A stretch of DNA of 64,000 nucleotides from Gemmatimonadota bacterium (GTDB lineage Bacteria; Gemmatimonadota; Gemmatimonadetes; Longimicrobiales; Gaopeijiaceae), in NCBI GenBank assembly GCA_003562075.1, contig PWWP01000345.1, positions 1 through 64,000 of the forward strand, written 5' to 3'. Position numbers and translations under genes: made by a program. The notes beneath the pieces were generated by a model, which was not told the DNA's origin, made no database searches, and saw nothing but the letters and a program-made list of their open reading frames with translations. Shown in pieces: positions 5,526 to 9,255 of the stretch (position 1 is the stretch's first letter; every line of letters starts with the position of its first letter).

Positions 5526-6290
5526 GTGTCATCAACGACTGCACCTTTCTCGGTTGAATGTCCGGCTTGCGACACGTCGTTTCCGGTAGACCCGGAACGG
5601 GTCCCCACTTCAGGCGTCCGTGCCATCTGTTCGACATGCATGCGGACGTTCCTCGTAATCCTCCCCGAATCGTTCCTCGATCATCGGGCCCCGGAGCCGC
5701 AAGAGGACGGAACCACCGGTATCCGGGAGGTTCCAGCACCTGCCCCCGCCACCGAGGACGCAGTTCACACTGAGGAGGACTCGGCAGAGGAACCGACACC
5801 AGACTCAGCCAGAGCTGACCTGTCCCAGGAAGGGTCCTCGAGTGCCCCGGCCCCTGAGACGGTCATTCCTCCACCACCGGAAGAGACTGGCGCTGAGAAG
5901 CCATCTCACGCTCCTGGAACGGACATCCGGGATGCAGGCTTCCACGACCTCACTTCGCTGACCTCGGAGGCACTGGAAGAAGCCCATGAGGAGGACGAGG
6001 AGACCGCGGCTGCGGCCCTCTCCAGTGGCATCAGTCGGTTCGGTCGCCGCGATCCACACGAACGGGCACGGCGCCTGGCTCGCGTCCTGGTCTCGGACAT
6101 CATCGCCTACTATCCGGAGAAACACGCCCGGGCGGTGGAGGAGGGAAGAGTGAAGGAGACCTTCGCTGAGGAGGTGGAGAAGTCAAGGCGGGAGTACACA
6201 GACCAGGTCGGGGAGGAGATGGCCGCATCCACGGACTACTTCCGGGATGCCCTCAATCAGGTCCTGGCAAGAGGCAGAATCGTATTCTGA
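5526..6290 (+). CDS. Zinc-ribbon protein with acidic linker and conserved-looking C-terminal domain
   Basis: An unrecognised protein of about 254 residues. GTG 5526 has a strong AGGAG five bases upstream and follows the previous stop directly; the longer track ORF runs antiframe through the GGDEF gene. The N terminus carries CPACDTSF and CSTCMRTF, an MJ0042-type zinc finger. Residues about 55-165 are low complexity, rich in Glu, Pro and Ala, probably disordered. The C-terminal 85 residues are charged and helical (ARRLARVLVSDIIAYYPEKH) and look like a folded domain. Related zinc-ribbon proteins often link a finger to a long disordered region and a binding domain. Coupling to the GGDEF gene suggests a shared regulatory role, but none can be assigned. 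Confidence 0.75.
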   Translation: MSSTTAPFSVECPACDTSFPVDPERVPTSGVRAICSTCMRTFLVILPESFLDHRAPEPQEDGTTGIREVPAPAPATEDAVHTEEDSAEEPTPDSARADLSQEGSSSAPAPETVIPPPPEETGAEKPSHAPGTDIRDAGFHDLTSLTSEALEEAHEEDEETAAAALSSGISRFGRRDPHERARRLARVLVSDIIAYYPEKHARAVEEGRVKETFAEEVEKSRREYTDQVGEEMAASTDYFRDALNQVLARGRIVF

Positions 6291-6317: not shown

Positions 6318-6346
6318 TTGAATGGCTCCTGGGCCCAGGGTATATT
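6318..6346 (+). promoter_or_regulatory. Sigma-70-like promoter upstream of the prfB leader
   Basis: TTGAAT (6318-6323), exactly 17 bases, then TATATT (6341-6346, 5 of 6 to TATAAT). Expected transcript start is near 6353, 28 bases past the zinc-ribbon stop and about 180 bases before prfB. It is the best -35/-10 pair in the left half of the window. Confidence 0.65.
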
Positions 6347-6352
6347 TGAAAG

Positions 6353-6458
6353 TCTTGGGGTCGTGAAATACCCCAGGGTTCATCCGCCAGTCGACCCAGG
6401 GGGTCTCGTCGACAGTGTGGGAGGGGCCGTCCCCTGCTGGGCGGCCCCTTATTCTTTT
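6353..6458 (+). ncRNA. Candidate structured leader or small RNA ending in a terminator
   Basis: Between the predicted promoter and prfB lies a stretch of about 105 bases with three successive hairpins. The first pairs CTTGGGGT (6354-6361) with ACCCCAGG (6370-6377). The second can form GTCGAC/GTCGAC (6390-6395 with 6408-6413) or, exclusively, GACCC/GGGTC (6393-6397 with 6401-6405). The third is a GGGGCCG/CGGCCCC terminator followed by a U-rich run. It could be an independent small RNA or a conditional leader controlling prfB-lysS. It matches no RNA family that I recognise; the SRP RNA consensus is absent. No coding potential of note was seen. Confidence 0.4.
6423..6458 (+). terminator. Intrinsic terminator between the zinc-ribbon gene and prfB
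   Basis: The 7-bp perfect GC stem GGGGCCG (6423-6429) / CGGCCCC (6442-6448) encloses a 12-base loop and is followed by TTATTCTTTT. It would end read-through from upstream and any transcript starting near 6353. Confidence 0.75.
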
Positions 6459-6534
6459 CCCTGCACACGACGATCTACTCCGTGAGGCTGACGGAATCAC
6501 ATCGCATTTACATGAGATCAGGATTTCTCCATCC

Positions 6535-7645
6535 ATGAATCAAGACGATCGAAATCGCGTTCTGGAACTCCAGGAACGAATCGAGCAGCTCAGGGGGTTC
6601 CTTTGACATCCCTCACCGGGAGCGACGAATAGAGGAGCTGGAAGCCCGCATGACGGCCCCCACTTTCTGGGACCAGCCGGACCAGGCCCGAGAGGTCATG
6701 GAGGAATCCAATCGCCTGAAAGGCTGGGTGGAGCCCTGGAATTCCCTCGATACCAAAGCTGGAGAACTGGCCGAATTGGCCGAACTCCTCCTGGATGACC
6801 CTGATCCCGAACTGGAGAAGGAGTGGAAGCAGGAATCGTCCAAACTCAGGAAACGCTTGGAGGAGCTGGAGCTCAGGACCATGCTCCAGGGGGAAAACGA
6901 CCACCGAAACGCCCTGCTGACCATTCACGCAGGAGCTGGCGGCACCGAGTCCCAGGACTGGGCCGAAATGCTCATGCGTATGTACCGGAAATGGGCTGAT
7001 CGGCAGGGCTACTCGGTGGACCTTCTGGACATCCAGCACGGAGAGGAGGCGGGCATCAAGGGCGTGACGCTCCAGATCGAAGGCGATTCAGCCTACGGGT
7101 TCCTGAAGGCGGAGAAGGGGGTCCATCGCCTCGTCCGGATCTCCCCCTTCGATTCCCAGTCCAGACGCCACACCTCCTTCGCCTCCGTCTTCGTATATCC
7201 GGAGGTGGACGACGACATCGAGGTCGATATCGATGATGGCGACCTGAGAGTCGATACCTTCCGAGCATCAGGAGCCGGTGGCCAGCATGTGAACAAGACG
7301 GACTCGGCCATCCGGATCACCCACGAACCCACGGGGATCGTGGTTTCCTGCCAGAAGGAACGATCCCAGCACAAGAACAAGGCAACGGCCATGAAGATGC
7401 TTCGGGCCGCCCTCTACGACCGGGCCTTGGAGGAGCGAGAAAAGGAGCGAGAAGCCGTGGAGGCCACAAAGACGGAGATCGGGTGGGGGAACCAGATCCG
7501 CTCTTACGTTTTTCAGCCCTACACCATGGTGAATGATCACCGGACGGAGCTCAAACTCGGTGACGTCGATTCCGTCATGGAGGGTGAACTGGACCCCTTC
7601 ATCGAAGCCTACCTGAAGAAGTTCGGAGCCCAGAGCACAGTATGA
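6535..7645 (+). CDS. prfB: Peptide chain release factor 2, expressed by programmed +1 frameshift
   Basis: RF2 terminates translation at UGA and UAA. Two track ORFs join here: ATG 6535 opens 23 codons ending RGFL, then an in-frame TGA (6604-6606); a +1 shift at CTT resumes at GAC 6605 and runs to 7645, giving about 369 residues, the family length. Hallmarks are the SPF stop-codon recognition tripeptide (RISPFDSQ) and the catalytic GGQ (GAGGQHVNKTDS). The N-terminal helical domain continues smoothly across the shift (IPHRERRIEELEARM), which shows both parts are one protein. The stop overlaps lysS as ATGA. Synthesis should be autoregulated by RF2 level, and possibly also by the hairpin leader upstream. 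Confidence 0.96.
6592..6607 (+). other. prfB: prfB +1 frameshift signal
   Basis: AGGGGG (6592-6597), three bases, then CTT TGA C. This has the same composition and spacing as the known RF2 autoregulatory signal: an internal Shine-Dalgarno-like element positioned before a slippery CUU and a UGA followed by C. When RF2 is scarce the ribosome slips forward one base and makes full-length protein. Confidence 0.95.
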
Positions 7646-9255
7646 CCAAGAAGACCACCTCCGGGGCACCGTCCCCGTCCGCCTCCGGTACCGAGTCCTC
7701 AACTCATGAGGCCGGCACCGACGATGAGAGCCATCTCCTCCAGGTTCGGCGTCAGAAACTGGAAGCCCTGAAGGAGAAAGGGGTGACCCCTTTCGCGTAT
7801 CAATTTGATCGAAGTCACCCCTCCCATGAGGCGATCCGACTCTTTGAGGAGGCCGAGAGCGATGAGCGGCTCGATGATCGGGGGCAGGCCGGATCCGTCC
7901 GAGTAGCAGGCCGCATTCTCAGTTGGCGAAGCCATGGAAAGAGTGCCTTTGCCCACATCGAAGACGGCTATGGACGAATCCAGCTCTACTTCCGACTGAA
8001 CGTCCTGGGGGAGGAAAGCTTCTCTGATCTGGACCTTCTGGACCTGGGGGACTGGATCGGTGTGGAAGGCCCCCTCTTCCGAACCCGGACCGGGGAGGTG
8101 ACCGTGCAGGTCTCGGACTGGACCATCCTCTCCAAGTCACTCCGGCCCCTTCCCATCGGAAAAGAGGAGGTGGACCCGGAGACGGGGGAGCGAGTGGTCC
8201 ACTCCGGCTTCTCCGACACCCAGGGCCGCTACCGACAACGCTACGCGGACCTGGCCGTACATCCGGACGTCCGGGAGACCTTCCGACTCAGGGCCCTTCT
8301 GATCCGGTCGCTCCGCTCCTTCCTGGATGAACGAGACTACCTGGAGGTTGAGACCCCCATCCTCCAGCCCGTATACGGAGGGGCGGCAGCCCGGCCTTTC
8401 ACGACCCACCACAACGCCCTGGACACCCGCCTCTACTTGAGGATCGCCGACGAGCTCTACCTGAAGCGGCTCATCGTCGGTGGGATGGAACGGGTCTATG
8501 AGATCGGCAAGGACTTCCGGAACGAGGGCATCGACCGATCCCACAATCCGGAGTTCACCATGCTGGAGTTCTACCAGGCCTTCGCTGATTACAGCGACAT
8601 GATGGATCTCGTAGAGGAGATGCTGCACAGAGCATCAGTGGAGACCACCGGGGGAGCGCAGGTCACCAGCGGCGATCACGAGATCGACTTCTCACCCCCC
8701 TTCCGACGGGTACGCTTCGTGGAGACGCTGAGCAAGGCCCTGGATCACTCCATCCATGAGCTCAGCGATGAGGAACTTCGTGAGCGGGCCCGTGGGATCG
8801 TGGGCGATGAGGCGGATCAGATGGGGCGTGGACGCCTCCTGGACAAGCTCTTCGGAGCGCTGGTGGAACCCTCCCTTGTTCAACCCACCTACGTCATGGA
8901 CTATCCGGTGGAGCTATCGCCACTGGCCAAGCTGCACAGGGACGATCCACGCCTGACCGAGCGATTTGAGCTCTTCGTGGATGGCCGGGAACTGGCCAAC
9001 GCCTTCTCCGAACTCAACGACCCTCTGGACCAACGGGGACGGTTCGAAGCCCAGGCCCGCCTCCGAGCGGCCGGCGACGACGAGACCCACCCGGTGGATG
9101 AAGACTACATCCGCGCCATGGAGTACGGGATGCCCCCCACCGGCGGGGTTGGCATCGGCATTGACCGACTGGTCATGATCCTGGCCGACAAGCCCTCCAT
9201 CCGAGACGTCATTCTCTTTCCCACTCTCCGGCCGGAGGAGGGAGCAACGGGATGA
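7642..9255 (+). CDS. lysS: Lysyl-tRNA synthetase, class II
   Basis: Charges tRNA-Lys. The 537-residue product has a roughly 30-residue Ser/Thr-rich N-terminal extension, then an OB-fold anticodon-binding domain (about residues 85-175) and a class II catalytic core. Motif 2 appears as GKDFRNEGIDRSHNPEFTM and motif 3 as GVGIGIDRLVMIL near the C terminus. Length is slightly above the usual 490-510 because of the extension. ATG 7642 shares ATGA with the prfB stop, and its own stop shares ATGA with the Lol permease, so it sits inside a coupled operon. prfB-lysS adjacency is common across bacteria. Confidence 0.96.
   Translation: MTKKTTSGAPSPSASGTESSTHEAGTDDESHLLQVRRQKLEALKEKGVTPFAYQFDRSHPSHEAIRLFEEAESDERLDDRGQAGSVRVAGRILSWRSHGKSAFAHIEDGYGRIQLYFRLNVLGEESFSDLDLLDLGDWIGVEGPLFRTRTGEVTVQVSDWTILSKSLRPLPIGKEEVDPETGERVVHSGFSDTQGRYRQRYADLAVHPDVRETFRLRALLIRSLRSFLDERDYLEVETPILQPVYGGAAARPFTTHHNALDTRLYLRIADELYLKRLIVGGMERVYEIGKDFRNEGIDRSHNPEFTMLEFYQAFADYSDMMDLVEEMLHRASVETTGGAQVTSGDHEIDFSPPFRRVRFVETLSKALDHSIHELSDEELRERARGIVGDEADQMGRGRLLDKLFGALVEPSLVQPTYVMDYPVELSPLAKLHRDDPRLTERFELFVDGRELANAFSELNDPLDQRGRFEAQARLRAAGDDETHPVDEDYIRAMEYGMPPTGGVGIGIDRLVMILADKPSIRDVILFPTLRPEEGATG

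Follow-up and report, generated by a model that had tools for sequence, protein, structure and literature searches.

A conserved terminator-like hairpin ahead of the release factor 2 gene prfB in Gemmatimonadota

Organization of the prfB locus

The window analyzed here is a stretch of 64,000 nucleotides from a Gemmatimonadota genome of 351 contigs. Genes around the element under study are ordered era, one further gene, an rnr-type RNase gene, a GGDEF gene, a zinc-ribbon gene, prfB and lysS. In agreement with the initial annotation, a promoter, three hairpins and a terminator were predicted between the zinc-ribbon gene and prfB, and promoter scanning and folding placed all of them where they had been described. 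The features are as follows.

5526 to 6290, + strand: zinc-ribbon protein gene (PF13717), upstream neighbour of prfB on the same strand
6318 to 6346, + strand: predicted promoter TTGAAT-17-TATATT (promoter scan), whose TANN(T/A)T box recurs in relatives
6353 to 6378, + strand: hairpin 1 (UCUUGGGG...CCCCAGGG; fold), located where the transcript is predicted to begin
about 6384 to 6420, + strand: hairpin 2 (GUCGAC/GUCGAC, with the local alternative GACCC/GGGUC; fold)
6421 to 6450, + strand: conserved terminator-like hairpin, in whose core GCCGUCC (6426-6432) pairs with GGGCGGC
6450 to 6459, + strand: U-rich tail of this hairpin, ATTCTTTTCC (sequence and U counts)
6535 to 7645, + strand: prfB, release factor 2 (PF03462 and PF00472), first frame from the ATG at 6535
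6601 to 6606, + strand: prfB +1 frameshift site AGGGGGUUCCUUUGAC, in-frame UGA at 6604-6606
7642 to 9255, + strand: lysS (PF00152 and PF01336), its start overlapping the end of prfB

The prfB gene, which encodes release factor 2 (RF2), is the textbook case of autoregulation by frameshifting. In the window, an SD-like AGGGGG precedes CUU UGA C (6592-6607) in frame with the start codon, with 69 nt from ATG to UGA, and the site was present in nearly all genomes read. A short ORF at 6512-6538 (ATG AGA TCA GGA TTT CTC CAT CCA TGA), whose UGA overlaps the prfB start as ATGA, lacks a clear ribosome-binding site and is absent from the genus relatives G001 and G002; it is probably due to chance.

Judged on the single sequence, both the promoter and the terminator matches are close to chance expectation here: a scan of 4 kb gave one promoter-like site for 0.7 expected and three terminator-like sites for 2.8 expected. 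The best terminator-like site between the end of the zinc-ribbon gene and prfB is 6421-6450. The 106-nt stretch 6353-6458 folds at -53.1 kcal/mol (z = -2.67), and 2 of 200 shuffled sequences were equally stable. The Rfam comparison suggested by the initial annotation gave no family: at the gathering threshold the window contained only two tRNAs and nothing matching the leader, and at a permissive threshold the best leader matches had E values above 1. Similarity searches at the DNA level with the whole leader recovered short pieces only, mostly from the terminator stem.

Conservation of the last hairpin

To follow the leader across the phylum, the prfB upstream regions of 57 relatives and 90 further genomes (about 145 regions) were compared, f1 to f9 being computed family labels and not taxonomic names. 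The initial annotation had treated the three hairpins as one structured RNA whose conservation and covariation could be examined in relatives. This held for the last hairpin, which displayed compensatory changes, and failed for hairpins 1 and 2, whose counterparts were confined to the genus and imperfect. Of the four other genus genomes, three have a predicted hairpin similar to hairpin 1, and most families had no counterpart; about 20 nt of hairpin 2 were missing from the other genus genomes in the alignment.

The stem at 6421-6450 is a stable GC-rich stem-loop of 12 pairs, 9 of them GC, and is recognized by covariance model R1 with 36.9 bits (E 2.2e-05), the window sequence being among those from which the model was built. 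Its core reads GCCGUCC...GGRCGGC, with an outer stem that is GGGG/CCCC in f1-f3 and mostly GA/UC in f4-f5. Of about 129 genomes in five families, 84 carry the hairpin (25 in f1, 12 in f2, 11 in f3, 19 in f4 and 17 in f5); in this set, G003, G009, G069, G094 and G126 are manual additions or re-anchorings. The automatic threshold alone gave 23/51, 12/12, 11/12, 18/28 and 18/26 for f1 to f5, respectively; among the 18 of f5, G079 and G080 were dropped, as the hairpin there precedes the promoter-like box. Dinucleotide-shuffled sequences passed the same criterion in 1-6% of cases, a control window further upstream contained the hairpin in 0/12 genomes of f2 and 0/12 of f3, and f6-f9 had it in 1/16 by the automatic threshold. 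Outside the phylum it was detected at 2 of 80 prfB loci, both in records titled Gemmatimonadetes. The prfB of one record titled Gammaproteobacteria (locus L093, JAPPHB010000115.1) shares 72% identity with the Gemmatimonadota query, and the record is probably mislabelled or mixed. In f7 (loci L198-L202), several genomes belonging to one genus lack the hairpin and have a different conserved stretch, GAAAGTTCGCCTTCCGCG...AAACGTGGTCTATTTACG, before prfB.

Among 81 distinct sequences, 97.4% of cells were paired compared with 86.0% in shuffles, and two-sided changes affected 89 cells compared with 26.6, counts that are inflated by the partial selection of hairpins for a G-Y-Y-G core and that should be read knowing that related sequences can exceed shuffles without any structure. 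Shifting the partner by one column reduced pairing to about 52%. The GC pairs of the core are nearly invariant and the loop is not conserved. By these comparisons, the predicted hairpin is conserved with compensatory base changes across much of the class.

These data bear on the proposal that 6353-6458 encodes a small RNA in its own right, about 100 nt long and acting in trans. Its predicted promoter, terminator and stable fold would suit such an RNA; however, no conserved RNA body precedes the last hairpin beyond the genus, the RNA released in relatives would be little more than the hairpin itself, and Rfam holds no match. We regard a small RNA as extremely improbable.

Placement relative to the promoter and the start codon

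A TANN(T/A)T box was located 2-32 nt ahead of the stem in 68 of the 84 genomes, whereas 7.8 were expected from shuffling, and a TTG about 17 nt above this -10 box was found in many genomes of f1-f3, where it is usual. The distance from the end of the stem to the prfB start codon is usually 17-36 nt in f2-f5, which appears to leave little room for a promoter in between. This short distance, together with the -10 box before the stem, indicates that the hairpin should lie within the prfB mRNA. The gap is 84 nt in the window and likewise longer in most members of its genus.

The window and its genus have a strong U-tract after the stem (7 U of 9 in the window). In f2-f5 the tract is weak (3.0-3.9 U of 9) and only partly resembles that of a terminator, so that termination may be slight or absent in those families. 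Over the whole set, U is enriched for about ten positions past the stem and then falls to a few percent. Gene-end hairpins retrieved with the same model have a similar U profile, with more U than the leader hairpins of f2-f5, although the model that selected them includes the tail and thereby favours this resemblance.

In most relatives, an estimated 5-15 nt separate the predicted transcript start from the stem, which is close for an intrinsic terminator. The element could be a stem that does not terminate transcription but, placed at the 5' end of the prfB mRNA or close to it, guards the message against 5' decay or tunes ribosome loading. The location of the stem, the weak U-tract of f2-f5, the strength of the stems (family medians of -20.6 to -28.6 kcal/mol) and the near invariance of the core GC pairs are all consistent with this role. 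Against it stand the sharp end of the U enrichment, as seen at gene-end terminators, the strong U-tracts of the window's genus and a sequence style shared with gene-end terminators, and on balance we consider it rather unlikely.

Comparison with other genes and with gene-end terminators

A control scan in f2 and f3 found a hairpin of this kind upstream of rpsB in 4/16, recA in 0/17 and rpsT in 2/18 genomes, compared with 23/24 for prfB. The four strong hairpins of this kind upstream of rpsB (among loci L308-L330) may represent upstream terminators or a second leader case.

The covariance model also matched other sites in each genome. Most of 20 that were inspected resembled gene-end hairpins with U-tracts, with examples identified by eye after a cold-shock-type gene (G046) and after a tRNA-like 3' end (G040); the idea of a hairpin type exclusive to prfB was therefore rejected. 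Tight pattern searches returned a few copies in each genome, close to what a reversed-pattern control gave, and the stem sequence alone is accordingly not diagnostic. The prfB hairpin shares with the intrinsic terminators of Gemmatimonadota the stem style GGGCCGYCC/GGRCGGCCC and a U-enriched tail. It differs from them in sitting between promoter and gene, in being conserved there across much of the class, and in its weaker U-tract in most families. Judged from sequence, the stem is the ordinary terminator type of this lineage, at an unusual conserved place, the predicted prfB leader.

Loss and relocation of the hairpin

The hairpin is absent from genomes in which prfB directly adjoins its upstream neighbour (G058, G075, G068, G065, G070 and G156). 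Four other genomes (G022, G066, G083 and G179) have a promoter-like box adjacent to the prfB start codon and no leader hairpin, indicating that the hairpin is not essential. Genomes with and without the hairpin alike retain the frameshift site. A strong hairpin lies ahead of the promoter-like box in G098, G130 and G080. In G016 (locus L046), a TATGTTT box just before prfB has a terminator-like hairpin on either side. The second carries a 7-U tract, and a transcript ending there would be a leader RNA just 35 nt or so in length.

This pattern of loss and relocation fits a terminator with an additional role in insulating prfB against the upstream operon. It also raises the reading of a plain terminator of that operon, which the prfB promoter happens to precede, prfB being expressed by read-through. 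The upstream gene is on the same strand and has no better terminator-like site before prfB, and both the losses at abutting genes and the three genomes with the hairpin ahead of the promoter agree with it. In most of the 84 genomes, however, the hairpin follows a promoter-like box and in few does it precede one, and G016 has one terminator before its -10-like box and another after. We judge an upstream-operon terminator to be quite unlikely, noting that this reading overlaps the one we prefer, a leaky terminator in the leader, and differs from it mainly in purpose.

Absence of a visible switch

The initial annotation had drawn attention to two mutually exclusive pairings in hairpin 2 and to a possible conditional leader. 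The two pairings do exist, involving GTCGAC copies at 6390-6395 and 6408-6413. The GUCGAC stem has an energy of -7.5 kcal/mol, or -8.6 with an inner CC/GG, and GACCC/GGGUC one of -7.2, so that they lie about 1 kcal/mol apart; both are local and neither touches the terminator stem. No competition with the terminator was seen, and a terminator/antiterminator switch built on the GTCGAC/GACCC pairing was rejected, as the alternative leaves that stem untouched. In the window leader the self-pairing probability of the terminator stem is 0.88-1.0, withholding its 3' arm leaves the upstream hairpins unchanged, and folding revealed no upstream segment competing with it. Sequence and folding comparisons found no sensor or switch in the prfB leader.

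A regulated leader, in which the choice between termination and read-through depends on RF2, a ribosomal protein, a Nus-type factor or a metabolite bound to the leader or to its hairpin, could account for the long conservation of the element at a gene already autoregulated by frameshifting, and the window's genus does have a longer structured leader. The self-pairing of the terminator stem without an upstream competitor, leaders too short for a switch in most relatives and the unconserved loop argue against it, and such regulation appears very improbable. As no segment competes with the stem and leaders are short in most relatives, a constant attenuator is preferred over a conditional one.

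Discussion

Comparison of the relatives establishes, for this predicted leader element, a position between promoter and gene, a conserved pairing, a U-enriched tail and specificity for prfB over three control genes. From these features we propose, at about even chances, that the hairpin is a constant, leaky element of the intrinsic-terminator type in the prfB leader, which reduces prfB transcription or insulates it. A polymerase that initiates near 6353 would have to transcribe 6421-6450 before reaching prfB. A fraction would stop at the hairpin, releasing a short leader RNA of about 100 nt here and about 40-60 nt in most relatives, and the remainder would read through into prfB-lysS. The hairpin would also halt transcripts arriving from the upstream operon, making prfB-lysS dependent on its own promoter. 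We infer termination, leakiness and purpose alike, the last being a low and insulated expression of RF2.

Leader attenuators of the trp/his or pyr type and riboswitch expression platforms likewise place a terminator-like hairpin in the 5' leader of the gene that is limited. The prfB leader differs from them in having no visible antiterminator, leader peptide or ligand domain, and in most relatives it is barely longer than the hairpin. The +1 frameshift of RF2 concerns the same gene, but acts in translation and inside the gene, whereas the hairpin precedes the start codon. The publications we found on prfB leaders, attenuation or premature termination deal only with the frameshift or with other genes, and none of PMC6212727, PMC6431027 and PMC10268239 describes a leader terminator for prfB; coverage of this literature was partial, and its silence is weak evidence of novelty. 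The same partial coverage yielded no work on the intrinsic terminators of Gemmatimonas-type bacteria. As far as could be seen, the conserved prfB leader hairpin is apparently unreported, while its kind, a terminator-like element in a leader, is known.

A second layer of control on top of the +1 frameshift, as the initial annotation suggested, is made plausible by a conserved element in the prfB leader; what is conserved is the terminator hairpin and not the three-hairpin RNA. A stronger version, which we think decidedly doubtful, combines frameshifting with a conserved conditional terminator answering the state of translation termination or a dedicated RNA-binding factor. If it were true, Gemmatimonadota would regulate RF2 in both translation and transcription. 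Returning to the constant, leaky terminator, if the hairpin limits transcription, prfB would be controlled beyond frameshifting, by a small and testable element in a poorly studied phylum.
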